Positions 2,393 through 46,770 of a stretch of DNA of 64,000 bases are shown piece by piece (within the stretch, counting starts at the first letter, position 1; the number at the start of each line of letters is the position of its first letter). The DNA comes from Heligmosomoides polygyrus polygyrus. Its lineage: Eukaryota > Nematoda > Chromadorea > Rhabditida > Heligmosomidae. The DNA is taken from positions 86,284,408 to 86,348,407 of the forward strand of contig OX377202.1 in NCBI GenBank assembly GCA_947396885.1, given 5' to 3'. A program made the position numbers and the translations under genes. The notes below the pieces were generated by a model, which had not been told where the DNA came from, did not search any database, and saw only the letters and a program-made list of their open reading frames with translations.

Positions 2393-5300
2393 GTGAGCAG
2401 TGGCGAGTAACAAAGGAATAATGCGATACTATAGGGCTTCCAGCTGTTAAACTTTACATCACACAGCATTCCTTTATTTTATTATACCAGACGTTCAGCG
2501 GTCTAGCAGTCGCCAAACATCTTGTTCGTGGTATCGCCCCTAAGCCCCGAAAATAGAACACTCCGACCGTCTTATTTTTAAAGCAAAACGTCCTCCCCTC
2601 TGTCAATACTAGAGATGCAACGCATGCTTCCCACACAATTTCTTTATTTACTTGCTACGCAAAGTCTTATCTGTGGCACATCTTCTAGATCTGAACGCAT
2701 GTTGCATAACGTCTATGACACATTTGCTCAGTCCCAACGCGCGTGTCACGATCTCATGAGCTCTGTGACACGTCTTCTGCATCTCGAACTGGTTCAACGA
2801 TACCAACTGGTTCCCTTACTGCCCCCTCCCCGCTTAATGGTTTAACCTTTAAGGCTTTCCCTTACAGGTGCCCGTCATTCTTCTGACAAGGGACGGGTCT
2901 GAAGCGTATGTCTGAACGGGGAGCGAGTCATATAGGGAGAATCCTCACCCCTCAATTGGTTTAAAAATGCGTTTATTTTTTGCCAAGTCGCTAAACCCAA
3001 GGAGTAGGAGGTCACAATGGGGTACGGCGCAGCACGCGATTGTGGGCCTTGTACGACCGCGAAGGGTCTCCAGCCAGTCGATCGCAGCGCAGGTGGGTAG
3101 AGGGTTGACTCGTGCGCGAGTGTCAGGAGATTGGTTTCTCTGCGCTGATGCATTCTTTGCATCTCAACTGATTGGTTGAGATTTGGGGGATTTTGACGTC
3201 TATACCATTTTCAGACGTTTTCTGCGCGTTTTCCAGCTGTATGCTGTGGAATTCAACGTGGTGATAAATGTTCTGCACCAGTGAATCGCGGTGTCTTCCT
3301 CCATGGTTATGAGCACGCAACGGAAATCCAATTGATGACGTACTGTTTCCTCCGAAACAAGAGTTCCAGCCGAAAACGTTATCATTTGCCCACTGCTTGC
3401 TTGTCTCTCCACGTCCATCAGTTCATCCTGCGGATCCCAATCTTCCCATTCTTCTTCCACCACTTCCAGCTGCTCGTCTTCGTCAACTTCAAGTTGACGT
3501 GCTTCGAAGTCCTTGAATATGCTGGCCATCCGTTCGGCCAACATGATTTCTTCCCTCGAAGATTCCTTGTGTAAAGGTGGGCCACAAGCAGGTGGATCAC
3601 CACGTGACTGTCAGCGGACATTGTTGGTGTTAGGTTTTAGAAAACCTTCAGCAGACCTCTGATTTCCAGGTGACAGGCAGACATGAGGGAAAGAGGGTAT
3701 CGATGCCGTTTAGCTTAATTTGCGGGATCCACACACCTTGTTTCTCATTTGAACCACCTCCGACGTCACAACGTGGTCTCCTTTGAAAATCCGAGCAGGA
3801 TGGTTTTTTCCCGAGGTCGTTGGTCCATGTATGGAAACAGACTTCATGCACTTTGTATCTGTGTATCACTGGTGTTGAACATTTATACATCTCCATCTTG
3901 AATACCACAACCACAACCAATTGAGGGAATTCTCCCTGTATGACTCGCTCCCCCCTTTCAGACATACGCACGCTTCAGACCTTTCCCTTGTGAATCCCGA
4001 ATCAAATTGGACACTTTTCAAATCAAATTGTACACTCTTCTAAGCTGGCCTATTAACTTTGAAATCAAATTGAACATCTTCCAAATCGAGACGGGCTTCC
4101 TACAGGTTAAGCTAAAAACACTCTAAGATGGTTAGAATAATTTTTTTCAATGAACTCTTGGAATCATTTTTTTGAAATTTCTTACTTTACATAGCTGCCG
4201 AATGAGTGAATCAATTTTATAAAATTTTGATTTTGTGAGAAAAAATCATAAATTAAATTTGTGTTAAGGCGCGCGCGGCAAGGCAACAATTATGTCCTGC
4301 ATCAAAAGACTGGTGCGCGCCATGCACTCAAAAAGTTCAACTCAACGTTAATTCGATTGCTTGTGTAAATGCTGCTTACCTGCAGCAAGAAAGTCAGAAC
4401 ATGTGCATTTTTTACAATTGTTTGCGTTGCATCCTGTGTGGAAGTGCATGCGAACAGAAATTTTGCGAATAAAAATCGCGAAGTTCCGGACGGGGGCATG
4501 GCGCATTCTCCGCTTTGGCTGTAGAAAATGGCTTCAATGAAAGTTATACTAAAACTTTTCTTCAACAAAAAAATTATTCTAACATTTTTGGAGAAATTTT
4601 ACTTTAGTGTAGAAGAAGTTCGTTTCGATTTGGAAGAGTTTGCTTTAATTTGAAAAGTCTTAGGTCAGCTTAGAAAAGTGTCCAATTCGATTTGAAGATG
4701 GTATATATAGTGAGAGAAGATATGAAAATCTCGCGAGCAATCTCCATCATCAGAAAATCCAAGAAAAATTAAATAAGAAAACACTACTAACTTGACGAGT
4801 TCTCCTCATCACGTTCTTGGGCTTATAGGCAATGTTTTCGTTACATCAGCAGTGCATTACGGAACCAACTTAATGAGATGTATACATTGTCTTCCAGATC
4901 CGGCAATCAATATCAGGCAGTTTTTTGCTGTACATAATGGCACTGATACCTTTCTCACTCTCGATGATATTCACTGCGCACATGAATATCATTGGCTGCC
5001 GAAAGCGGGTAAATCCCTACACTATGTCCTACACTTATGCATGCAGGTGGGTGACGTAGCTATTGCACTGAGACAGCGAATATCGGTAGTTAGCAAATTG
5101 CATTTTTTCAAAGGCATGATATTTAAACACTTAAAGTTTAAAAAATTATAGAGTTGTACAGGGTGTCCCAAAAAACGTAGGCACTGTTTACAACTTTGCT
5201 TTCAGTAAAGGTGCTAAAGAAGTTAAGAGCTCACATGAAAGCGCAAGAAAATAGAAATTTTCTAACATATAAAGCTAGGGATTGCACCACGCCTTCGTCT

Positions 5301-19836: not shown

Positions 19837-20389
19837 CTGATGTCAAAACAGTGTAAAAACCAAATTGGACTCTTTTCGTTTCTTGAAACGATGAAGTGCC
19901 GAATACTGTAACGCCAAGGAAGGTTTCATGAGTATCTGAACCAAGAATCAATTTCCTTATCTGGAGCGTGCTTATCTCTTTCCCTAATAATCTTAGGTCT
20001 GGCCTGGAACACCAGTTCTACTGTAGATCAGAGTTCTTGCTTAGGCTGCTAGCATTGATTTCCATTGGGCCTATCCTAGTCGGAGCGCATGCGCTGTCTT
20101 GCCTCTCCCCCCTTGAGTTTATTTCAGAGCTTCACCTACTGCCAGATGGTATTATGGTACCCATGTGAACTCAGAGGGTGTGTCGTGGGTGCTGAACGCA
20201 ACTGCAGCCTTAGCGTTGCCCCCTTCGAATTAGGATAGATACGGGATATTCAATAAGACCGGCTAAGTACTACATTATGAGCGGCAAAATCTCTGGCATC
20301 TTTCTCGTCAGCTGGATTCATCGCTTTCTTTCAATTTACAGAAAGATTAAACTTCGATTTGTTACACTAGTAATCTGAAAATTCATCTT

Positions 20390-21622
20390 ACAAGGGAAGG
20401 GCCTGAAGCGTATGTCTGAGCGGGGGGAGCGAGTCATATAGGGAGAATCCTCACACCTCAATTAGTATTAAAATGTGTTTGTCTTTTGCCAAGTCGTTAA
20501 TCCAAGGAGTAGGGGGTCCTTGAAGTCACATGGAATACGGCGCATCGCGAGTTTGGGAGTCTTGTACGCCCGCGGTGCTTCTGTCGGTAAGCGGCTCGCA
20601 GCGCAGTGGAAGTGGGATTGCTTCATGCAAGGAAGGTCGGGAGTTTGGTTCTTGTGCGCTGCTGCATTTTTGCATTTCGACTGACTGGTTGGGATTTGGG
20701 GATTCTGACGTCTATAACATTTTCAAACGTTTTCTGCGCATTCTCTAGCTGTACGCTGTGGAGAGTATCTTTCCTGCGACTTGTTTAATACTGACTGGTT
20801 TTCTAACCACAAGACAATTAGAAAGCTATTCAACATAACAATGTATAAATGCTCAACACCTTCGAAGTACCTTAGTATGCAGACCATCTGTTCGGCCAGC
20901 TTGATTTCTTCCCTCGAATTTCTCCTTGTCTAAAGGTGGGCCACAATTCAACGTGAGCAGGTGGATCACCACTCGAGCATGGGCGGACACTGTTGGTGTT
21001 AGGTTCTAGAAAACCTTCAGCAGGCCTCTGATTTCCAGGTGACAGGCAGACATAAGGGAAAGAGTGTACCGTTTAGGTTAATTTGCGTCATGCACAAACC
21101 TCGTTTCTCATTTTAACCAACTCCTGATCCCTTTTGAAAATCCAAGTAGGATGGTTTTCCCGAGGTAATTGGTCCATGTATGGAAACAGACTGTGAGGAG
21201 AATGTAGCCTTTATACGTTGCCCTATTGTGCCCAGTGGTGCTTCATCCACTTTGTACCTGTGTATCACTGATGTTGAACACTTCTATATCATCATGTTGA
21301 ATACCACAACATTCAGCTGAAAAATGAGGTACAAAAACGTCTGAAATGGTATGGACGAATCCTCAAATCTCAACCAGTCAGATGAAATGCAAAAATGCAG
21401 CAACGCACAAGAACCAAACCCCCGACGTTCCTCTCATGAAGCAGCCCACCTCCACTGCGCACCGAACCGCTTGCCAGGAGGCATCGCGAGCGTATAATGC
21501 ACCCACCCAATCTCGCGACGCGCCGTATTCCGTTGTGACTTCAAGGACCCCTACTCCTTGAGTTAACGACTTGGCAAAAAATAAACACATTTTTATACGA
21601 ATCGAGGTGTGAGGATTTCTCA
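20390..21622 (+). mobile_element. Non-autonomous DNA element with long terminal inverted repeats, copy 2
   Basis: The left end (CAAGGGAAGGGCCTGAAGCG onward) and internal blocks (GAAAACCTTCAGCAG, CCAGGTGACAGGCAGACAT) match the element at 2886-3992. The right half (about 21330-21622) is an inverted copy of 20440-20760, so the arms here exceed 250 bp. The left-terminal 50 bases are absent from the right end. Confidence 0.55.
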
Positions 21623-21699
21623 TTTATTGCTACTATTATTAGTATTTCATGATATTTCACGATTCATGAAAAATTAAATGAAGTAATGCGTTTTGAGAC

Positions 21700-21800
21700 A
21701 TTTCCGTCTCCGTATTTCGTATTCCGGTTTACGCCAATCTTTGAGCGTTCCGTTTCGTATTCCATGTTCTCGAAAAAAAATCCGCACATCTCTGATATCC
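21700..21800. repeat. GGAA-rich dispersed repeat, copy 2
   Basis: It contains CATTTCCGTCTCCG, TATTCCGGTTT, CGTTCCGTTTCG and TCCGCACATCTCTGATATCC. The wording matches copies at 19495, 39465 and 40890. Confidence 0.45.
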
Positions 21801-22205
21801 ACGTTTTTCGCGCGTGCGCATCCACTAAAGCGCTCATAGTCGAGCGCAATGGAAGACTTCTGGTAGTCGTTAGAACTTGCCGCATGTTTGGAGAGTTCCT
21901 TTATCAGGAACGACAGAAAATGTGGATTAGAACTCAGTTTGCTTAGAACATTGCCGTACACATTTGTGTTGAGCTTAGAGCAGCTGGTATAGAGGTTATG
22001 CATGCTGGAGTGGTTTTCACTTCGACCAGAACCCGGTGCAATGCGGGATTTGTACCTTCACCCTTTGCCTTCTGGACAGGATTACAGCAACAGCGCGGTT
22101 TGATTGCACCCAACATTCCCAAATCATAGGAGAGTGATGATAGACCATCCGCAACGAGGATATAGCGGATGTGGTGCGCGGTTTACCAACGCTGATAGTA
22201 TAGTG

Positions 22206-22270
22206 GGCTAAGACCCCGCCCTGAAAGCAGGGGGTACGGGTTCGAGTCCGCCCGGCGCGAGAGTTTCGAT
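22206..22270 (+). repeat. tRNA-like SINE fragment, family 2
   Basis: Box B GGTTCGAGTCC is preceded by TATAGTGGGCTAAGACC and followed by GAGTTTCGATCGCAACAAA, the same tail as the repeat at 17873. The tRNA-like part is too decayed for a tRNA call. Confidence 0.45.
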
Positions 22271-22310
22271 CGCAACAAATGATCTAACAGCATCAGTTTA
22301 CACATTTCCT

Positions 22311-22615
22311 TTGATGACCAGGGCGCGTGTAGCGCACTTGGAGGAGGCGCCGGCTGTCGCGTGCACCCGATACCAGTTCGTGGTTCGGATTTCTCGCCCA
22401 GGCCAACCAAGCCTTCCATCCCTCCGGTTCGGTGAATTGACACCAGAATTGTCTGGGAAGAGCAAAGTGTTGACTTGTTCATCGGCTGGCCACCGCAAGT
22501 CACTGCATCGCCAAACACGCATTCAACTCTCCTCCACGACGTCCCGTAGAAGTAGAATGCGTGGCGCATCCCAAAAGGGACTGAGTAATGCCGTCATTTA
22601 TCCTTATCCTTTGGT
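22311..22615 (+). repeat. tRNA-derived SINE, copy 3
   Basis: This is one of the best-preserved copies. It has GCGCGTGTAGCGCA (box A), GGTTCGGATTTC (box B), the TGACTTG/CAAGTCA hairpin, GAATGCGTGGCGCATCCC and the TTATCCTTATCC tail. Confidence 0.75.
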
Positions 22616-23055
22616 GACCATGTCTAACCTATGTCTAGTACTCGTTACTCCTCACACATTTCTGTCATACTTAAGCATACAAGAGAGAGTATCTCTAAAG
22701 ACAGGGCTTCATTAACAATCTAAAGTTGACGTATGCCTTCTCACGTTCTTCACGGTCATATAAATCTGCACGTAAATGAGTGTAAAAAATGCCAGCTACG
22801 GTTATGTCGTGTCCCGTTATAATGCGGAATTTCTACGGTCCCTTCTGCGTTATAACGAGAGGGGACTGTCACCTCTGCTTGGGATAGGCCACGCATTCTA
22901 TTTCCTCGTCGCATTGTGGAGGCAAGTTGACTGCAGGCAATGACTTACCGTGACCTACAGGTGAACAGGGCAGTGCTTTATTCAATGTCACGAGTGTGCT
23001 GCTACGAACCCCAGGCAGATACAAATCTTCTTCTTCTTCTTCTTCTTCTTATTCT

Positions 23056-24195
23056 TCAGCGTTTGTCCCGCATCGTCGCGGGGTCCGCTCTTCTGGTGTT
23101 ACGACGCCACCTTTCCCGATCCTGCGCTTTATCAGGGTGGACACCAGCTACTTTCATGTCCGTGTGTAACGTATCGGACCAACGCTGCTCCGGGCGTCCT
23201 CTAGGCCGCTTTCCAGATACTTCCAACTCAAGGCCTATCTTGCGGACGCTGTATTCTTTCCCACGCAGAACGTGGCCGTACCATCGCAAGCGAGCTTCGC
23301 GCATCTTGTCGACTATCGGTGCGATACCGAACTTTTGCCGAATAGCATCATTTCGAATGCGGTCCATGCGCGTGACTCCAGCCGTCCAGCGCAGCATCTT
23401 CGTCTCCATGACGCTGAGGCGCGTTTCAACTTCTTTGGTCGCAGGCCAACTCTCAGCGCCGTACATCGCTACCGGGCGCACGACGGCTCTGTAAATCTTC
23501 GACTTCAGGTGCTCTGGTATCTTCCTATAGCAGAGCACGCCAGTCAGCGAACGCCACTTGGACCAAGCTGCACTCACGCGTGAGTTCACTTCAACCATCA
23601 GACCGCCGTCAGACGCTATTGCTGATCCCAGGTATTTAAACACCGAAGTGCGTGCAAGTTCAGTACCGTCAATCTTAATAGAGCCGAACTCGTTCACGTC
23701 AGTCGTTAGGTACTCGGTCTTTTTGACGTTCAATTTAAGTCCGAACCTCGCCAGACGGTCGCACCAAGCTTGCACCTGCCGCTCGAGATCGTCTTTCTCT
23801 TCGCAAGCGAGCATCACGTCATCAGCATAAAGCAGCGTCCATGGAACGGGCTGCTGAAGATCTCGCGTAATGGCATCCATGACGACAACAAAGAGGAGTG
23901 GAGAAAGCGCAGAACCCTGGTGCACCCCAACAGAGATGGGAAACTCCATTGAGGTTCCAGCTGCAGCTTGCACTCTACTATTTGGGAAAGAATAGAGCAT
24001 CCGCACCCACTCTATGAGTTCCTCAGGTACGTTGTGTTGTCGCAAGGCGTACCATATAACCTCACGCGGTACGCGGTCGAAAGCCTTCTCCAAGTCGAGA
24101 AAGGCGATATGCACCGGCTCCTGTCTCTCGCGATGCTTCTCCACAAGGAGGCGGGCGACGTGTATAGCATCAATGGTCCCACAACCAGATACAAA
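23056..24195 (-). pseudogene. RTE reverse transcriptase, C-terminal part
   Basis: The frame reads FVSGCGTIDAIH, FLDLEKAFDRVP (motif A), HQGSALSPLLF (motif B), LLYADDV (motif C) and LRWYGHVLRG, and ends at a stop at 23056. It is open throughout but lacks its N-terminal part, which continues at 26597 beyond the nested insertion. Compared with the RTE at 6522 it is a different subfamily. Confidence 0.8.
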
Positions 24196-26241
24196 TAAAG
24201 AAAGAGAAATGAAAAGAATAAACAAAAAGGACTAATATCCGTTTCGTTCCTACCCTTAGACGGATATCAGCAAGAACAAAAATAAAAGAATAGGGTCTTT
24301 CCCGGAACTCCTCAGTAAGGAGGAAAGACCCTTAGAATGTTTGAACATAACTCACCTTCAAATCGTATACGCTCCACAAAAATATACAGGATCACAGTAG
24401 AATAGATAGAGTAGTAGTAGGATAGATAAATCACAGGCTGTATAGGTAAGAAGTCTCTAAAAACGATGAAATCTCAAGAAAATCTTCAACAGTGGTGAAC
24501 CAGCGAATACCTAGTATCCAACGAGAATATAAGGTAAATAGAGGAAAAGACATAACTGCTGATATTAGGAACTAAGAGGTATTTATAGGCTAAAGTAATA
24601 CTCAGCGTGAAAAAGGCGCGGAAAAACAATTGTTATTGGAGCAGATAAACTACCACAACAAGGGCAACTGTCAACTAGATCGGCTAAATGGCAAGCGTGC
24701 TCCGAATAAGACACAGCGCTACGCCCTTAAGTGCAATTACACTACCTTCACCATAAAACGTTACATAATTTAAAATACTTCCAAAAACGATAGAAATGCA
24801 AGGAAAAGGTGTATATGCACAAAATACAATAAATGAAGTAGGCAGAGATCGTATAAGAAGGCAAGTACATCTAATATAAATTTGGAAAGTTATACTGATG
24901 AAATATTGTGTTATGGAACTAGGAAGATTAAATATTATGACTTGGCTGTAAAGTATTAAAAAAGCTTCTCTAGTATTTTATGTTTACAATATTTAACATC
25001 GAAAAGTTTGTATTTATACAAGATAAACTTATTTTTAGTTAAACATTTGAAAAGATTATTAACTATCACTAATCTAGTGTAACCATTAGCAATAAGAAGT
25101 TTATAAAGTGTATTGATACGTTCTAAGAAATCTTCTAAACATGTACAAGTTCTGGAGATTCTCAAAATTTCTGTATAAATTGTGGCATTTTTAACACCTA
25201 AGCTGATTAGAGATGTAGCATGTGGAAGTCTTTTAACCTCAAAATTAAAACTATCAGTTTTGTTATAATTTTTTGTGCGAATTATGTTGTTATCAATAAC
25301 TATGTCTAAATCTAGATAGCAACTGTGGTAATCATTAATGTGAGTAGATTCTATTTTAAGAGTATTACCATACACATTATTGAGGATTTCTTTGATATTG
25401 TTAGCATCACTATTATAATGATAAGTATATCATCCATATATCTAAATGGTTTAAATACTACGTTATTATATGTTCTATTTGCAATGGAATAACCATATTC
25501 AAAATAGGACAATGTTAAGTCAGCTAGCAATGGGCTAAAGTTACCTCCCTGTGGAACTCCTATAGTTTGTCTAAAAATAACTTTACCTAATTGACAAAAA
25601 CTGTTATTGATAAGAAAATCTACATAATACATTAAATCATGAATGTCATAAAGGTTATATTTAATATCACATATATCAGTGTAAAATATTTTATGATTGT
25701 AGCTATTATAAGCAATGTATTTTTTACCTGAATTTTTAAAGCATAATTTAAGTATATTTTTTATGTTGTTGATTATTACCCTATGTGGTAAATTTGTAAA
25801 CATGTTAGTAAAGTCTGCAGTGAAAATTTTCAAGTTAGTTACATAAATGCTAATTAAATTATTACTAATATTTATGTCATCTATGGCCCAGTAACCAGTA
25901 ATATTTTTATTTCTTTTGTTAATAGAATTTACATATCTACGAAAATGAACTTTAACAAATGAAAAGATATTTTTAAGTTCTACTGCTAACGGTTTAATAC
26001 TACTATTATAAGCACCTGTAATAAACCTAAATTTAACCGGTGTTTTGTGAAGTTTGGGTATGCAGTACAAAAGTGGTATATCTGCCTTATTAATACTACC
26101 TATTCTCATTTTATTACAAATATTGGCATGTCTGTGTAGAATCTCTCTTTCAGATTCTTTATTGTAAATAACATATGTATTATTATCAACTGCATTATCC
26201 ACATTCATTTCTTTAATAAGCGTAGAAATGTAAAATTGGAA
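24196..26241 (-). mobile_element. Penelope-like retroelement inserted in the RTE, 5'-truncated
   Basis: This 2046-bp AT-rich block lies between two copies of a 356-bp RTE segment (23840-24195 and 26242-26597, about 1% different by eye). It encodes a Penelope-type RT on the - strand. About 760 bp follow the stop codon, including a hairpin pairing GGGTCTTTCC with GGAAAGACCC near 24295-24332. The base composition is distinctly more AT-rich than the flanks. The N-terminal part is missing. Confidence 0.7.
24956..26241 (-). pseudogene. Penelope-like reverse transcriptase, frameshifted
   Basis: The first frame (26244-25351) has IPLLYCIPKLHKTPVKFRFI (RT fingers), FTADFTNMFTNLP (motif A), GVPQGGNFSPLLADL (motif B) and FRYMDD (motif C). 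Just after YMDD, near 25405-25415, the frame shifts. The thumb-like part then continues in 25375-24956 and stops after about 130 more residues. No GIY-YIG endonuclease follows the RT. That excludes classical Penelope/Neptune layout and fits families with the endonuclease at the N-terminus (Naiad/Chlamys type) or with none; the truncation prevents a decision. Confidence 0.75.
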
Positions 26242-26597
26242 CATGGAACGGGCTGCTGAAGATCTCGCGTAATGGCATCCATGACGACAACAAAGAGGAG
26301 TGGAGAAAGCGCAGAACCCTTGTGCACCCCAACAGAGATGGGAAACTCCATTGAGGTTCCAGCTGCAGCTTGCACTCTACTCTTTGGGCAAGAATAGAGC
26401 ATCCGCACCCACTCTATGAGTTCCTCAGGTACGTTGTGTTGTCGCAAGGCGTACCATATAACCTCACGCGGTACGCGGTCGAAAGCCTTCTCCAAGTCGA
26501 GAAAGGCGATATGCACCGGCTCCTGTCTCTCGCGATGCTTCTCCACAAGGAGGCGGGCGGCGTGTATAGCATCAATGGTCCCACAACCAGATACAAA
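26242..26597 (-). repeat. 356-bp direct duplication, second copy
   Basis: It matches 23840-24195 end to end (CATGGAACGGGCTGC to CAGATACAAA). Only a few substitutions are visible, for example GAACCCTTGTG versus GAACCCTGGTG, CTACTCTTTGGGCAAG versus CTACTATTTGGGAAAG, and GGGCGGCG versus GGGCGACG. Both copies encode the same RTE motif A-motif B segment. Confidence 0.85.
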
Positions 26598-27950
26598 GCC
26601 GCACTGGTTGTCGGAGAGCTTGACGATTTCACGGATTCTTCTATCGAGGATTCGCCGAAGATCTTCATGCTGTGCGAAAGCAAGCGAATCGAACGGTAAT
26701 TGCAGCAGTCTGCAGGACTGTCTTTCTTCTTCCAAATCGGAATCGTCGTACTGTTGTCCCAACACTCCGGTACTTTCTTCTCCTTTACTACCTGATTGAA
26801 GAATTCAGCCAACCACTCAGCAGGATACCAGAGCTTCGACTTCCAAACATCGGCTGCCAGATCATCCGGCCCTGTCGCCTCACCGGGCTTCATCTTCTTC
26901 AGAGGCGCTTCTGTTTCCTCACCGATGATCTTGTGAACGGGACCATGAACAGAAGCCACAGAAGGGATGACCGGATGAGGAAATTCCATAGTGGAAGTTT
27001 CCTCAAAGTAATCACGCCATCGCTTCAGCGCCTTTTTGCGGTCTCTCAGAAGATGGCCGCTCTCATCATTGATGCAGCCAACTTTTCAATGTCCTCGGTT
27101 TGGCGATGGCGGGTCTTAGCAAGTCGGAACAAATACCGCTCACCATCGCGCGATTCGAGCTTTCGGTAGACATCACCATAATTAGTGGCTTTCGCAACAG
27201 CCACGGCTTTCTTTGCAGCCTTCTTCGCCTTCTGATACTCCTGCCAGTTGTCGGCTGTTCTGTCGCCGAGAAACACATGATACAGCGACTTCTTCTCTCG
27301 AACCTTCGCTTTCACATCGTCTGTCCACAGCCATGCCTGCTTGTCGACTTTGCGTCGTCCAGGCTTCGTAGTGCCGAGTTCCAACCTTGCAGCTTGGCGT
27401 ATCGCGTCGGTTGCTCTCTTCCAAGTTTCATCGACAGTCGTAACTGTCGGTAACCGCACGCGAGAGATCACAGCTGCTTCCTTCTCGTTCATTCGCCACC
27501 ACTTTATCCTTGCAGCACCGCATCGCTCGACCTGCTTCAGGCTCGGTGAGGCGATCTTCAAAGTACAGATCAGCGGTCGGTGCTGTGGGGTGACCGTCTC
27601 ATACGGCACGACCTTCGCGTCTGTGACAAGGCTCCGGTCGCGATCCTTCACAAGCACAAAGTCTATCTAAGACTTGGAGCTCCCACTATAATATGAGATG
27701 AGGTGGGAGTCGCGTTTTCGGAAAACGGTGTTCACAATGGTGAGGCTATGCGATTCCGTATACTCAAGAATACGCTCACCATCGGCGTTACGAGACCCGT
27801 ATCCGAAACCACCATGACAGCTGTACCCGTCCTTCGCAGCACCTACGTGCCCATTAAGTCACCAGCGACTATGATGACATCTTTCGACGGTACCTCTGCT
27901 GTCTTCTCATCAAGCAGGTTCCAAAACTCATCCTTGGCTTTATCGGAGCA
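26598..27950 (-). pseudogene. RTE endonuclease/linker/RT N-terminal part
   Basis: On the - strand this contains the end of the endonuclease (IDFVLVKDRD, PQHRPLICTLK), the linker with AWLWTDDVKAKV, and the RT start (GEATGPDDLAADVWK, IPIWKKKDSPADCCNYRSI). Lesions include a stop replacing the residue before IDFVL (near 27668), a frameshift near 27045 and another near 26690. It joins directly to the RT at 26597. Confidence 0.75.
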
Positions 27951-28119
27951 CAGGCAGATACAAATGAAAGGCTTAATCCACATAATGCCGCATGAAACTG
28001 CCAAATATACTGCTTCATCCCTTCACCCACAATTTCCACCTTTCATACAATTCGAGGACTAAAAGAGAGTGCTTTCAGAGAATGCAAAAAAATCTGATTT
28101 TATACTCTTCACTTTCACT

Positions 28120-28980
28120 TTATTACCACTGAAAGGGAAGCACTGAACAAAATTCCTGACATACAGGAGTCTTTAAAATTACTACTCACGCAAAACAAAG
28201 ACACTGAAGGCATGTCTATGTTTTTGTTAACTAAATTGCTATCTTTGGAAATGTAATTAAGCTGTTGATGTTTGCTCATTTGTCTTTGTCGCTTATGTCT
28301 TCTAATAGCCGCTCAACGTTGAGCGATTTGGATACCTCGTATTCCCCTTTTCTATACATCAAGCCCTTTTATTACGCTATCGCTTTGACTAGATAAATAA
28401 ACAAATAGTTTTACCAAGCCATTGCGTGACTTCTGTGAGCGTGGTGGCGCAGTCGAAGGAGGTGCGGCTGTCGCGTGCACCCGATACCAGGCACTTGGTT
28501 CGGATTTCCCGCCCGGGCCAGTCAAGCCTTCCACCTCTTCGGGGTTGGAAGTTAGTACCAGGCTTGTCTGGGAAGGATAAAATACAATACGACCGCATTT
28601 TTTGGCCTTTTGGCGGAAAAACGCAAAAATACCATTTTTGTCGTCCTGGATGGCACTGTTTAAATTGCATACCTATAAAAATGAAGCATAAAGAACTGCG
28701 TTACCCATCATCTATTGGAATCCGCCACGCATTCAACTTCTACGGGGTGTCGCGGAGGTGATTTGAATGCGTATTTGATTATACATACTAGCGGTGGGCA
28801 GCCGATGAACAAGTCAGTGCTTTATCCTTCCCAAACTATTCTGGCACCAATTCGCCCTCCCCTTGGAGATGGAAGGCTTGGTTAGCCTGGTCGGAAAATC
28901 TGAGCCAGAAACCTGGTATCGGGTGTGTGAGACAGCCGGCACCTCCTACAACTGCGCTACATGCCACCAAAATCAAAGGT
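28120..28980 (+). repeat. Segment duplicated upstream of GPCR-B
   Basis: It matches 430-1330 in order and orientation: CATACAGGAGTCTT, CTCATTTG, GCTCA.CGTTGAGCGATTTG.ATACCTCGTAT, then a + strand SINE head (28436-28600) and a - strand SINE (28690-28970). It lies 2.4 kb upstream of GPCR-B; its partner lies 0.7 kb upstream of GPCR-A. Confidence 0.6.
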
Positions 28981-28984
28981 TTTA

Positions 28985-30055
28985 TTTTTAAAAAATTGTC
29001 TGCTGGACGGAAGATGGCTACTGCCTCTCGGCATAACAATGCTTCTTCGATCCAAATCTTCACCATTTATAAAGTATCAGTTTCTGCCGGTGTTAAAAAT
29101 TAATTGAAATAGATACATGACAAACTAATATGGTATTTATATCATTAATATTCCCGCTGGTGAAGACCGCTTTCGAGCTTTCCTTCAGAAGCTCGAGCTG
29201 CGACAAGAGCATGAACAGTTGCAAGACTTGTTTGGCTGTTAGAATCGCTTATAAGACACCTCGAAACAAAAGAAATAGACACAAAGGCACATCCAGCCTC
29301 AGTATTGAGCTCAATTGCATGGTCTAGATTGGGCGGATGATTACGGAAAAGAGGCTCCGCCAGTTCCATAGTGACCAGGGCACAATTCACGTTATGCATG
29401 CTTCGCAGTTTTCTCACACTGGTCTAACAATAGAAACGAAACAAATGGTGAATTTTTTACCTTGTGATGTATTGTTTTAATTATAAAAATTTTAAAAATT
29501 TATTCACTCAAGTGCCTCGAGAAAGATCTATTCCAAACCTGAACTCATTGTTCGTCAGCTCGCCCATTGAATCAACATCCTGCACGTGCTAAAAGGCCTT
29601 CCGCGATATCATGTGGGATAGGAATGCAGGTGCGCTCCGTGCAGTAATTAATATGCTAGTTTTCCTCGTTTTTTTACCACCTGCCTCTGTTCAGTCGATT
29701 TACTCAACGGGCTTCATCGTCCAAACTCTCTTATAATGCCTCCGCTCAATTGGTTTCAGTGACAAAAATCTGCTTTCTAATTTTCCATTTAAGCGCGCTA
29801 GTGCTTTTAGATTCGCGTTGAACCATGTGAATTGAAAAAGCCGTTACCCCACGCTTTCAAAATCGTAACCTTTTTCTTTGATCACATCAAAAGGCAATAT
29901 TTCTTAGATCTCGAGCTATCTCACTTTTTGAATCAATGTCTTTTGTGAATTGGAGGTGGAGAAGCTTTATATTGAACGGGAGAACCCTTGTGAGCCATCT
30001 TTTTGCAGGAGCCTTCTAGTCCAACCAAGAACCCATTTTTGAGAGTACTTTCTCG
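28985..30055. other. No gene recognised
   Basis: Short ORFs here show no family motif and no splice pattern matching either GPCR. I see no strong inverted repeat in this kilobase. Confidence 0.35.
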
Positions 30056-30058
30056 TTC

Positions 30059-30672
30059 GGACGCGTGGTAGGGCAGTCGGACGGCTGTCGCCTGCACCCG
30101 ATACCAGGTTTCAGGTTCGGATGTCCAGCCTACGCCAAGCAAGCCTTCCATTCTTCGGTGAGTTGGTATAGCGCTGATTTGTCTATCGGAAGGCTACAGC
30201 ATAGCCCAAATACGCATTGAAATCGACTCCACGATATGCCGTGCAAGTAGAATGCGTGGCGCATCCTAAAACGGAATGAGTAAATCCCTCCTTTTTCTTT
30301 ATCCTTATCCTTTGTAGCCCTTACATGTCCATTACCTTGCTTTAAACCTGAAGCTGTATAATCTGTTACCCACGGCTTTATAATAAAAGGATAAAGGATG
30401 GCACTATTCAGTCCCCTTTGGGATGCGCCACGCATTCTACCTCTACGGGATGTCGTGGAGGCGACATGAATGCGTATTTGGCCATACAATGACTTGCGGT
30501 GGCCAGCCGATGAACAAGTCAGCACTTTGCTCTTCCCAGACACGTCTGGTACCAATTCACCGACCCCGGAGGGATGGAAGGCTCGGTTGGCCTGGGCGAG
30601 AAATCAGAACCAAGAACCTGGTTTCGGGTGCAGGTCACAGCCGGCACCTCCTCCGACTGCTCTCCACGCGAT
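30059..30672. repeat. Inverted pair of SINEs, copies 4 (+) and 5 (-)
   Basis: The + copy (30059-30318) ends in TTTATCCTTATCC. The - copy (30384-30672) begins AAAAGGATAAAGGATGG and ends with the box A region near 30660. The two tails face each other across about 65 bp. A transcript through both would form a long hairpin. Confidence 0.7.
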
Positions 30673-30699
30673 CAACTCATGGCTTTATATGAACTGATT

Positions 30700-31425
30700 A
30701 TTCGCCGTTTCCCGGAATTTCAGTGGAGACCTAACCTTTGTAAGGCAAACCTGAAAAATCGGTAGTACTACACATGCAAATATGTAAATAGGCAATTAAC
30801 TGTCTAATTGCCTATTTATTTGCTTGGACTGGTAGATATAAATATCCACGGAAAAAAGAAAAAACCTAAGAAACTTGTACTCTACAATACAACGTAAAAT
30901 AAAAAGTTATCCGTTAAATACAAAAGTTAAATACATTGAAAGATATCCATTAACGAGCCTCTTAGGTTGAGGTAATGAATTAGGGAGCACGTTGTTTGAG
31001 CATCTTAAGAAATCAGACCCATCCCTTTCGATAAAATAGGAAGCTACGAAAGACATTTTTGCATAGGAGAAATAGATTTCCTGCTGATTTCCTTACTTCT
31101 TGCATTAGAATTCCGTAACGTGTGTGTTGAAAATTGTTACCATCTGAAACACGAGAAATTCAAACCGCACATCTTCTAAAACAGAATGCGCAACTTAGGC
31201 ATAAAGTAATGCATTGCTACGAAAACAGGTTATGAAAATAATGAAAATTTTGAAATTGCCTTAATGAAATAGCACTGTTCCAATCCAAAGTATTCGCATT
31301 TTATCTACTAAACCAAAATCACTCGTTGCGACATCAACCTCTTTGTTCTAGCGTTTTAATCCGATAGGCCGCATTAGTCGTTTAGCCTATACGGATTGTT
31401 TTAAAAGTCGAGCAGTTTTCTAGAA
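30700..31425 (+). other. Upstream region of GPCR-B
   Basis: The spacer is AT-rich. AATTGCCTATTTA... near 30792-30826 contains a short inverted repeat (AGGCAATTAACTG / CTAATTGCCT). No TATA box or operator can be claimed. The last ten bases before the ATG hold the TTTTCTAG acceptor. Confidence 0.35.
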
Positions 31426-31803
31426 ATGGAGAAGACTTTCGACTGTCTCCAAGCGATTCATCCACAGGAAGCCTCTTTAGAGGAACGGTACCTTTTCGGG
31501 ACTACACTGCTGCTCGTATCAGTCGGCTCTATCGCACTCAACGTCCTACTGGCATTTGTGCTGTGCCGATCGAACGTCATCGACAAGTCCGTCCAGCCCC
31601 ATATCGCGAGCATGGTAGCCGGAAGCCTGCTGTGCCTGTTCACAAACTGCTGGATTCTGGTGCCAACCATTCTTGCCCATGTGATCATCGCCGATCCATA
31701 CAACGTCATTTTATCAACGCCTGATAGCATTGGGTATTTGATGGTTATGTTCACCACCACAACTATGGCTGCCGACAGATTTTTGATATTCTTCACCCCC
31801 AAA
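31426..31803 (+). CDS. GPCR-B exon 1 (N-terminus, TM1-TM3)
   Basis: The exon has 126 codons and ends in phase 0 at GTGAGC, just after DRFLIFFTPK. The N-terminus MEKTFDCLQAIHP aligns with MSDLSSCFHAIHP of GPCR-A, sharing Cys7. There is no signal peptide, as expected for this type of receptor. Confidence 0.88.
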
Positions 31804-34800
31804 GTGAGCTTCTAGTACTGAGGGAATCTGAGCTATTGAAGCTTCCCTACGGACAGCGAAGCGACAAAAACACACTACACGTTCACGTTTTGGTAACAAT
31901 AGTCCTACAGATGGCGGTCTTTATGTGTTTATGTGCCATTTTCACTTCAAGTTGGCTCATCTTCTAAACAAAGATGTTTTTGAGATCAAAGTGAAGAAAG
32001 ATTGTAAACGAATTTTTTATTTAAGAAAAATTTTTTGCCACTTATTTTTTTCTTTATTCTTTTTTCTGTTATTTTTTGTTTTTTCTCGGCATTTTTAGTT
32101 TGACTTTTTTAAAGAGTATAACAATTCTATATTTTTTCGAAAATAATTTTAAAATTGAAAATAATTAAAAATTGAAATATCGAGCTGAATTTTGTTTTAA
32201 AACGCAACAAGGCAGCAATCACTTAGCGAATTAAACAACGAGATCAGATCGCGCCACGCAGTTGAAAAGCGCGGTTTTTAAGCGTCATTAGAAGCTAATC
32301 TCGGTCAATACATCACTAGATCAATAGACCCTCCACTCTAACAGGCATGTAGCTTGTCACGACTCACTTCTGCATGCAATTTCGCAGCTGCCACACCTTT
32401 TTCTCTTCATTTTCTCCCCTATTCCTAAGGATTTCTATCGTTTTTTGTTGTTGCAAGGAGCCAATTATTGGCCAAACTCTTCCGCTATTTGATTTTGCAT
32501 ACAATTTTTTGTTGGCTAAAATAAATAAATAAATAAATATATAAATAAATAATAGATGGCCGCTTTTCCGCTATTTAAACATGCTTCAAACCGTTATTTT
32601 TCCTCAAAAACAAAATGAGATTTTTACAAAAGTTATATGTCCCTTCTTAGGTATATGAATTGAAACGTCAAAGCAATTCGCACTTAAATTGTCTTTGAAC
32701 AAAAAAATTCCAACGTTTTTGAAAATTCTCTAGTTTAATGTAGAGCGAGCTCGTATTCGTTTGGAAGATGCTCAAATTGGTTGTAAAAGCGCTAAGCTTG
32801 TAGAAAAGAGTGTCCAATTTTACGCGAAAAGTGTCCAGTTTGATGTGAAATACGCCCATTTCAACGTGCAAATGGTACTTGCTGTCGAAACCTATCGAAC
32901 ACGAGTCGCTGGACTTAAAGTGCAAAAGCAAGCTACTACTTACTTAGCCGATGTATAGTAGTATCATCTACAACCTTCCTTGGACTGATTATTGGTCACA
33001 GGGCTGTTGCTACGAAGATGGGCAAACTGATTCTGAAAACACTCACATTCTGTGATCAAAACTCTGTTGTGTAAGAAACTCGTGACTTCTTTCAGACTCG
33101 GCAGTTCATATCGAATAGTTTCGCTCTGTATATTTTATCGCTTATCCCTTGCTCAATGTCGTTAATAGTCACAGTGCACATGAATATTATCGGATGTCGA
33201 AAACGAGTTAATCCTTTCACTATGTCCTACACTTACGCATGCAGGTACGTCAATCTTGCTTTCTTAACATCGATTAGCTGCTTATTTTCACCACTTTCAA
33301 TTTTCATAATCTAAAATGTCGCAGTTGTTAATTACGTGTGTGCAAAAACTTTTTCGCATACCGGATCTTATTCAGTTACGAGATCGAGGTAAAATTCAGG
33401 CGTTGATCTTGCGTAACATTTTTAAAACAGAAATCACCTGTATCACCTGTCGTCCCGTTGATCATCTACTTGCTCGAGCGGGCGCCCGCAGCGTTTCCAT
33501 TGTCCCTCTCGCGTGCCAGAGTGCTCCAGTGGATCCTCCTCGCTCGAGGAACGCGAAGAGCGTCATATCGGTCGTTTAGGGCTTTCACGAAGAAGTCCGA
33601 CCAACGCGTTGGTGGGCGTCCCGGTGTTCTCGTGACATCCCGCGGAATCCAGTCGGTAACGGCTCTCGTCAAGCGGGTGTCTGCGAAGCGCATTACGTGG
33701 CCGGCCCACCTAATTTTCGACAACTTGGCCCACGCGACAGCGTCTCTGAACTTCGAACGTCGGCGAAGCTCGGAACACCGGAGGCCTTTACTCACTTGCG
33801 TGAGTCGTGTCACTCCGAGCATCGTCCTCTCGATTCCTCACTGAGCGACGCTGATCGCGTGCTCATCCTGCTTTCGTATAGCCCAGGTCTCTGAGGCGTA
33901 TGTCAGGGCAGGAAGAACGGTAGAGTTGAATAGGTGGGTACGAAGTCGGACGCTCATCATCTTCTTCACGACTTCTTCGAACCTCTTGAGTGCTGCCCAA
34001 GACGCACGTTTCCTCCTGCTCAGCTCCGGCGCTAGGTCATTGGCCATATTGACTTCGCGACCCAGATTCACGTAGCTGGAGCATTCGGAGATGTTCGTTC
34101 CGTTGAGCGAGAATGGGCATCAGAAACTCGTCCGTTCCTCATGAACATCGTCTTCGTAAGATTCAGTTGCAGCCCAACGTTCCCACATACACTATCGAAG
34201 TCGGCCAGCATTCGCTCCGCCTGGCTGATGCTCGGTGTTATGAGCACGATGTCGTCAGCGAAGCGAAGATGGTGCAGTTGCTGGCCGTCGACTTTCACTC
34301 CCATGTCTTCCTATTCTAGTTCGCGCATGACGTTTTCGAGAGTGGCGCTGAAGAGTTTCGGGGATATGGTATCCCCCTGCCGAACCCCTCTCTTCACGTC
34401 GATGACGACGTCGTTGTAGAATGGAGAGATCTTGGTCGTGAATCCATTGTACAGCTCTCGAAGGATTCTGATGTACTTAACAGGAACCCCCTGAGTGAGC
34501 AGGGCGTTGATGACCGCTTCAGTTTCGACGGAGTCGGAGTCGAACGCCTTCTTCAGGTCGATGAACGTAAGGCACAGCGTCAGCTTGTACTCTCGCGACA
34601 CTTCGATGAGCTTCGTAATGGTGTGTATGTGGTCGATCGTGCTGAATCCTCTCCGAAATCCTGCTTGTTCGCATGGCTGTCCTTCGTCCAGCGTTCTGCT
34701 GATCCTTTTCAGGATGACTCGAGTGAACAGCTTGTAGACTACGGACAGCAGGCAGATAGGGCGATAGTTGCCAATGTCGTGCACGTCTCCCTTCTTGTAC

Positions 34801-45039: not shown

Positions 45040-45190
45040 CAAAGTGAATGCTGGTCGACTTTAACTATGGATGTGGGGACGTTGGGATGAATCATACGAA
45101 GTCGATGTTCATGAGAGACGCACGGGTTTTTGATGCCCCATTCTCGGTCAACGGAGCGAACATCTCCGAATGCTCCAGTTCCCGAACAAA
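45040..45190 (+). pseudogene. RTE-1-like fragment
   Basis: The translation contains KSMFMRDARVFDAPFSVNG and NISECSS, which match the block after the RT catalytic motif in the RTE-1-like copies at 33435 and 59237. Both ends are truncated. The fragment abuts the left arm of the palindrome around the assembly gap. Confidence 0.65.
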
Positions 45191-46770
45191 GTCAATGGGC
45201 AATGTTCATTCTGTTCATTGGCGCTTAGACGATGTTTGCACCAGAAGTGGCTACACGTGGCGTCGTAATTCATGTGAATGATAGCCTTGCACGAGCCGAA
45301 GCAATCCTCGCCCAGCACATCTGCTCATTTGTTGCATACTCATTGAAGAAGACGAGCTTTTTTCGTTGAAGCAAAAGCAGGGGATAGGAGGTTGAAATAA
45401 CATGTATGTGTCACCCAGCTCACGGTCGAATATAACTCATAAGTTTTCGAGCATTTACGAGTGTCTTCATTAAACAATTTCCTACTATAGAGGGCAGGCC
45501 CAGACTTTGCGAGAAACACACGAGAACAGAAAGAAAGCCAAACATTTCCCGCCGCTAACTTCGATATAGCTTCTAGTCGCTAGTACTAGGTAGCACTGAA
45601 GGTTTCCTCCATTTTCTTGATCGCAGTTCAAATGGTCATAACTTCGGATAAAACTAATCTCTTCTATTAATGTAAGAACTATTACATTTGATACATCACC
45701 ATCAGTGAAAACCATAAGAATGTGCTAGTTGTACCAGTTGAGCAATTAGAGCTCATCAACTGTTGCAAGGTAGTTATTTCAGGTTCCTGCACACGGTGAG
45801 AGTTCGAATCTATGTATCTATTCGGAGGGGCTATCGCTAGAAAAGCGGAACAAATGGGAACGACGTGGCTTCCGGCTAGGAATTTGCAAGGAACGGTTCT
45901 CTCGTTGGTTAATTCTCGCGTTAAAAAGTCAGAGTGGAGGGCCTCCCTCCACCTCACCACATTAAGATAGATCCGAGAGTTCTCCNNNNNNNNNNNNNNN
46001 NNNNNNNNNNNNNNNNNNNNNNNNNNNNNNNNNNNNNNNNNNNNNNNNNNNNNNNNNNNNNNNNNNNNNNNNNNNNNNNNNNNNNNNNNNNNNNNNNNNN
46101 NNNNNNNNNNNNNNNNNNNNNNNNNNNNNNNNNNNNNNNNNNNNNNNNNNNNNNNNNNNNNNNNNNNNNNNNNNNNNNNNNNNNNAGTTGATGAGCTCTA
46201 ATTGCTCAACTGGTACAACTAGCACATTCTTATGGTTTTCACTGATGGTGATGTATCAAATGTAATAGTTCTTACATTAATTGAAGAGATTAGTTTATTC
46301 GAAGTTATGACCATTTGAACTGCGATCAAGAAAATGGCGGAAACCTTCAGTGCTACCTAGTAATAGCGACTAGAAGCTATATCGAAGTTAGCGGCGGGAA
46401 ATGTTTGGCTTTCTTTCTGTTCTCGTGGTGTTCTCCCAAAGTCTGGACCTTGCCCGCAATAGTAGGAAATTGTTTAATGAAAACACTCGTAAATGTTCGA
46501 GAACTTATGAGTTATATTCGACGGTGAGCTGGGTGACTCGTACATGTGTTTTCAACCTCCTATCCCCTACTTTTGCTTCAACGAAAAAAGCTCGTCTTCT
46601 TCAACGAATATGCAACAAATGAGCAGATGGGCTGGGCGAGAATTGCTCTCGGCTCGTGCAAGGCTATCATTCACATGAATTACGACGCCACGTGTAGCCA
46701 CTTCTGGTGCAAACATCGTCTAAGCGCCAATGAACAGAATGAACATTGCCCATTGACTTTGGTCGGGACA
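45190..46770. repeat. Large palindrome interrupted by an assembly gap
   Basis: The left arm 45190-45768 is the reverse complement of 46186-46770 at high identity (for example TTCCCGCCGCTAACTTCGAT against ATCGAAGTTAGCGGCGGGAA). Sequence between 45769 and the gap (to 45985) is the unmatched centre as assembled. The palindrome probably caused the gap. Confidence 0.75.
45986..46185. other. Assembly gap (200 N)
   Basis: Exactly 200 N, a conventional placeholder size, so the true length is unknown. Any translation through it is meaningless. Confidence 0.99.

Follow-up and report, generated by a model that had tools for sequence, protein, structure and literature searches.

Long flanking duplications at some insertions of a Naiad-like Penelope-like element in Heligmosomoides polygyrus

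The window analysed here, a 64,000-nt stretch of Heligmosomoides polygyrus polygyrus contig OX377202.1, contains a Penelope-like element (PLE) inserted in a non-LTR element of the RTE type, and the same 356-bp segment of the host stands on both sides of the insert. How could an insertion leave so long a duplication behind, when target-primed reverse transcription (TPRT) is expected to give target-site duplications (TSDs) of ~5-20 bp? The two segments, at 23840-24195 (3'-side copy) and 26242-26597 (5'-side copy), both on the minus strand, form a direct repeat whose copies are each exactly 356 bp long and align without gaps, with 352/356 bases identical (98.9%, 4 mismatches). The preliminary description, in which the insert lay between ~99% identical RTE segments of this length, was thus exact in its borders. 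The host RTE lies on the minus strand at 23027-27950, as defined by homology to 28 other fetched RTE copies. It is 5'-truncated at 27950 and split by the insert, with Pfam RVT_1 matches at 23059-24231 and 26208-26804, and it has an exact 15-bp TSD of its own, CAGGCAGATACAAAT, at 23012-23026 (3' side) and 27951-27965 (5' side). When one of the 356-bp segments is used to join the flanks, the RTE reverse-transcriptase (RT) frame is open across the site, indicating that only the insert and one copy of the segment were gained and that nothing was lost.

The 28 RTE copies used for comparison were the closest ones fetched, taken from the best 40 scored of 3756 candidates. The two segments differ from each other at 4 positions and from each of these 28 copies at 6 to 12, which rules out a chance likeness or two unrelated RTE copies. 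The bases that both segments have at 24120 and 24145 are found in 0/28 of the other copies, and the base shared at 24190 in only one. Three of the four differences are changes of the 3'-side copy (23980, 23987 and 24158, the last base also being present in 1/28 other copies), and the fourth, at 26321, is a change of the 5'-side copy. Based on the rare variants that they share, the segments are true duplicates of the host RTE copy.

The inserted element is a 5'-truncated PLE on the minus strand at 24194-26237, as judged by family homology. It had previously been placed at 24196-26241; these positions are correct as the borders of the repeat, but not as those of the element itself, since the homology common to family copies begins at ~24193-24194 with AATAAAG, which puts the 3' end at ~24194-24196, and stops at the 5' truncation at 26237. 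At the 3' junction, the dinucleotide AA belongs to target and element alike. At the 5' junction, GGAA (26238-26241) lies outside the element homology and is either a 4-nt filler or a short templated stretch, the neighbouring target being ATGGAAC. The RT is spread over two minus-strand frames: a fragment with GVPQGGNFSPLLADL and YMDD stretches at 25354-26241 (ORF 25351-26376), and the C-terminal region of the disrupted RT ORF at 24959-25429 (ORF 24956-25429 in the ORF list). The RVT_1 match of the former (E=4e-4) is below the Pfam cut-off; of its eight homologous proteins, which include proteins of Cooperia, Anisakis and Ancylostoma, seven contain PF00078 and four contain PF26215. The kinship of this RT with PLE and telomerase RTs, a mark of PLEs, is putative. 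Searches of the PDB yielded no relative of the RT fragment (to E 0.1) or of the endonuclease ORF of the family (to E 1). The stretch at 24959-25429 also matched Pfam Rep_fac_C below the threshold (E=0.0037), probably by chance. A 3'-terminal hairpin is predicted on the minus strand at 24293-24331, with a perfect 10-bp stem in the window copy, and also in diverged copies, with some mismatches; this hairpin could be a candidate recognition signal for the RT. The hairpin was also considered as a potential hammerhead, but none was among the Rfam matches to E 10 for window positions 20000-32000, which contain the truncated copy only.

Copies of the element occur throughout the genome, with at least 50 matches listed in one search (best 40 of 268 candidates) and at least 42 in another (best 40 of 264). 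The 3' end, AATAAAG on the plus strand, is common to most of the loci examined, and the 5' ends are variable; a common 3' end with variable 5' truncation is a feature of TPRT retroelements. A common 5' end is found in two longer copies, C1a at C1:28.18 Mb and C52b at C52:29.3 Mb; in the translations of both, which contain frame breaks, the RT is preceded on its strand by a GIY-YIG domain (PF01541 in C52b, E=2.6e-5, above the cut-off). The window copy, being 5'-truncated, lacks this domain. Between the two domains, a CxC stretch was recognised by eye, which reads CDCACN in C52b and DCACN in C1a. C52b is split by ~1.9 kb that include a tandem array of ~7 copies of 145-bp units (L034/L063, joined positions 3141-5036).

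Naiad and Chlamys PLEs have an endonuclease N-terminal to the RT with a CxC motif between the domains, and typically possess pseudo-LTRs (pLTRs); a domain inserted in the fingers is a feature of Naiad and other N-terminal EN+ PLEs, for which we know of no hammerhead ribozyme. The GIY-YIG domain of Naiad and Chlamys was reportedly placed upstream of the RT in the 2021 work of Craig and colleagues, from which we know of no long duplications. The present family resembles these elements in its domain order, with GIY-YIG preceding the RT on one strand, and in the CxC motif (CDCAC) in between, whereas a self-repeat search of the 13.5-kb stretch with C1a, the longest copy, revealed no pLTR or other terminal repeat. 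The family therefore appears to be Naiad-like, an assignment made from domain order and the CxC motif, and is filed as Naiad-like only since no pLTR was found. According to excerpts of the published work, the canonical EN+ Penelope elements of Adineta vaga also combine GIY-YIG with RT and show 5' truncation, and one of them is inserted in a non-LTR element (PMC3846280). However, canonical EN+ elements differ from the present family in their C-terminal endonuclease (PMC11167929, in part), their pLTRs and their TSDs, given in the same excerpts on A. vaga as 8-10 bp or none (PMC3846280).

The long duplication looks like a recurrent companion of this PLE. Among 15 family copies with placeable ends, a non-random set taken as the searches gave them, three have long duplications (162, 356 and 1605 bp), one has a duplication of 14 bp, and none was found at the other 11; a short TSD of the kind expected from TPRT is therefore present in only 1/15. 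The 5' ends were set where homology to longer copies stops or, for L043, where the RTE resumes. At C52a (C52:5.24 Mb), the duplicates 5237388-5238992 and 5241712-5243328 adjoin both ends of the element and measure 1605 bp (1617 bp in the second copy), with 4 substitutions and 2 indels between them. The C52a element, at 99.1% identity a close sister of the window copy, differs from it by 16 substitutions in 2043 columns. An ungapped scan of the flanks missed this duplication, which rests on separate comparisons. C52b is flanked by a 162-bp duplication of 100% identity (160 bp without a shared TA), and Ns are confined to the first 12 bases of its stretch, away from the duplication. At all three loci, target and element have AA or AATA in common at the 3' junction, and the 5' junctions show no clear homology. 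The duplicates differ at 4/356 positions in the window, 4/1605 at C52a and 0/162 at C52b, and a comparison with the divergence between sister elements (16/2043) suggests that they are roughly as old as the insertions. The survey of relatives for recurrent duplications that the preliminary description had proposed, run here on a small scale, thus added two copies with 162 and 1605 bp, and this recurrence supports its view that a Penelope element left an abnormally long duplication on insertion. It had also reasoned that relatives with short duplications only would speak against that view; this is not what was found, yet L043, an older relative in an old RTE, has a 14-bp TSD (13/14), and 11 of the 15 copies have none. 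The L043 site is ~200 bp from the window site within the RTE, which may be chance given the abundance of RTE.

For the 11 copies at which no flanking duplication was found, the search covered 1.5 kb of flank on either side (L053, L060, L057 and L049) or 4.0-5.0 kb on the 5' side and at least 1.5 kb on the 3' side (C60a, C27a, C13c, C60b, C52c, C1a and C13b). C27a showed no duplication although its 1.1 kb match the window copy at 99% identity. All three copies with long duplications belong to the younger group, and duplications in older copies may have decayed. Several weak matches were rejected and not counted: a 7-bp match at L049, slightly above its 12 controls, is 22 nt off the junction, junction matches at L060 (6 bp) and C60b (7 bp) are within controls, and an 80% flank repeat at C13c, 366 bp and 4.1 kb from the junctions, is a dispersed repeat. 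Outside the count of 15 are seven older copies (L073-L079) and a further set of older loci covered by a self-repeat scan (L044-L048, L050-L052, L054-L056, L058 and L059), all with undefined 5' ends and no flanking duplication found. L038 was also left out as a duplicate of L037: both stretches carry one and the same element copy, its internal gap included, and may represent a haplotypic or segmental duplication.

The RTE copies of the same genome behave differently. Of 29 copies, 11 were examined as a non-random sample, and 10 of these, the host RTE included, have TSDs of 14-20 bp, those of the six copies reaching the common 5' end being 14 to 18 bp; none of the 11 has a long TSD. Three TSDs were found by eye and then checked (L006, 13/14 bases; L007, 19/20; L009, 15/16), and at L023 a TSD was sought but not found. 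In these non-random sets, short TSDs are significantly rarer in the PLE than in the RTE copies (1/15 vs 10/11, Fisher p=2e-5), and the excess of long TSDs is non-significant (3/15 vs 0/11, Fisher p=0.24). The control of 11 RTE copies rules out that long TSDs are a habit of all retroelements in this genome.

The common 3' end, the 5' truncation and the 2-4 bases shared at the 3' junctions fit with TPRT, and under TPRT the length of a TSD is the distance between the first and the second strand break, here 160 to 1605 bp. We therefore propose, as the probable explanation, that the Naiad-like element inserts by TPRT and that the break of the second strand is uncoupled from the first nick. At the window locus, a 5'-truncated element would have entered the RTE copy after a first nick behind ...CAAA on the plus strand; the 3' AA of the nicked strand might have annealed to the UU at which the element RNA ends. 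The second break would then have fallen 356 bp away on the other strand, where ~15 bp is usual, and the interval would have been duplicated as the long overhangs were filled in. The distance to the second break would be broad, 162, 356 or 1605 bp on the duplicating side, with no duplication in other cases, perhaps as a result of deletion or blunt joining. The nick positions, the primer pairing and the uncoupled break are what we infer from the junctions and duplication lengths, and the uncoupling is ascribed to the nature of the element because the RTE copies of this genome have TSDs of ordinary length. The 11 of 15 copies without a duplication, the 14-bp TSD of L043 and the short or missing TSDs of the A. 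vaga PLEs speak against this mechanism.

The main rival, to which we give a much smaller but still appreciable chance, is a replication-coupled capture, in which a fork breaks or collapses and the cDNA of the element is joined between two of the resulting ends, on sister chromatids. The outcome would be a tandem duplication that has the element at its junction, and the element would not need to make a second nick. The footprint would be identical, and both the broad range of duplication sizes (162 to 1605 bp) and the three 5' junctions without clear homology, with the 4-nt filler in the window, agree with it. However, AA or AATA at all three 3' junctions points to target priming, which a capture would not need.

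An artefact of assembly or amplification, through collapsed alleles or chimeric long-range PCR, is improbable. It is true that the published H. polygyrus assembly was, according to the available part of its description, built from PCR-amplified single worms (PMC10682056), and that L037 and L038 (C13:80.80 and 80.87 Mb), near-identical and 66 kb apart, may be a residual haplotypic duplication. Yet the duplicates abut both element ends exactly at three loci and differ in sequence at two of them, the collapse of alleles of one insertion cannot on its own account for two overlapping junctions at a distance of 356 bp, and the same part of the description gives an assembly QV of 53.9 (PMC10682056). 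Even less credit can be given to ectopic recombination between two element copies that occupied different RTE copies at sites 356 bp from each other. In its favour, the genome is rich in RTE (3756 candidates at first look) and L043 also lies in an RTE close to the window site; against it, both 356-bp copies have variants absent or nearly so from 28 other RTE copies, and the C52a and C52b stretches gave no match to the host RTE. That the element hit the border of a pre-existing tandem duplication is the least credible of all: such duplications do occur elsewhere in the fetched loci, but the border would have to be hit to the base at three loci, and the duplicates are about as diverged as sister elements or less.

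TPRT with an uncoupled second break has a parallel in human L1. In NER-deficient cells, L1 TPRT gave TSDs that ranged from 5 bp up to 5.3 kb, had a median of 1495 bp and were longer than 100 bp at most inserts, and a distal, unrelated nick was suggested; in HeLa cells, no more than 10% of events ever had TSDs above 100 bp, and complemented cells had 3/9 (excerpts of PMC5223499). Because these excerpts document long TSDs for L1 in some cells, we count the present family as TPRT-like despite its few short TSDs. Whereas the L1 inserts described there arose in cultured mutant cells, those described here are genomic copies of another element class beside RTE copies with ordinary TSDs. Long TSDs are thus already known for L1, and what appears to be new is their presence in a Penelope-like family; in the open-licence PMC literature, we found no report of such duplications for PLEs, about whose transposition relatively little is known (PMC11167929, abstract). 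The finding of 160-1600-bp next to 14-20-bp duplications in one genome separates the second-strand step of the element from that of the host, and makes the second-strand question testable by genome survey and biochemistry. Insertions with long duplications could also duplicate exons or regulatory DNA. One might speculate, tentatively and with more doubt than confidence, that Naiad-like PLEs in general lack coordinated second-strand cleavage and characteristically leave either no duplication, by deletion or blunt joining, or one of between 100 and several thousand bases, so that each insertion could act as a small germ-line generator of segmental duplications. A long direct repeat around a nematode retroelement may also exist in C. 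elegans, in which Rte-1 is reportedly flanked by a direct repeat of ~200 bp. Rte-1 is, however, an RTE, and in the present genome 10 of the 11 RTE copies examined show 14-20 bp.

Elsewhere in the window, the sole run of N, at 45986-46185 and hence away from 23840-26597, is a 200-N scaffold gap flanked by inverted repeats (45180-45761 and 46186-46768, 95%), and because of these repeats it probably lies within a palindrome.
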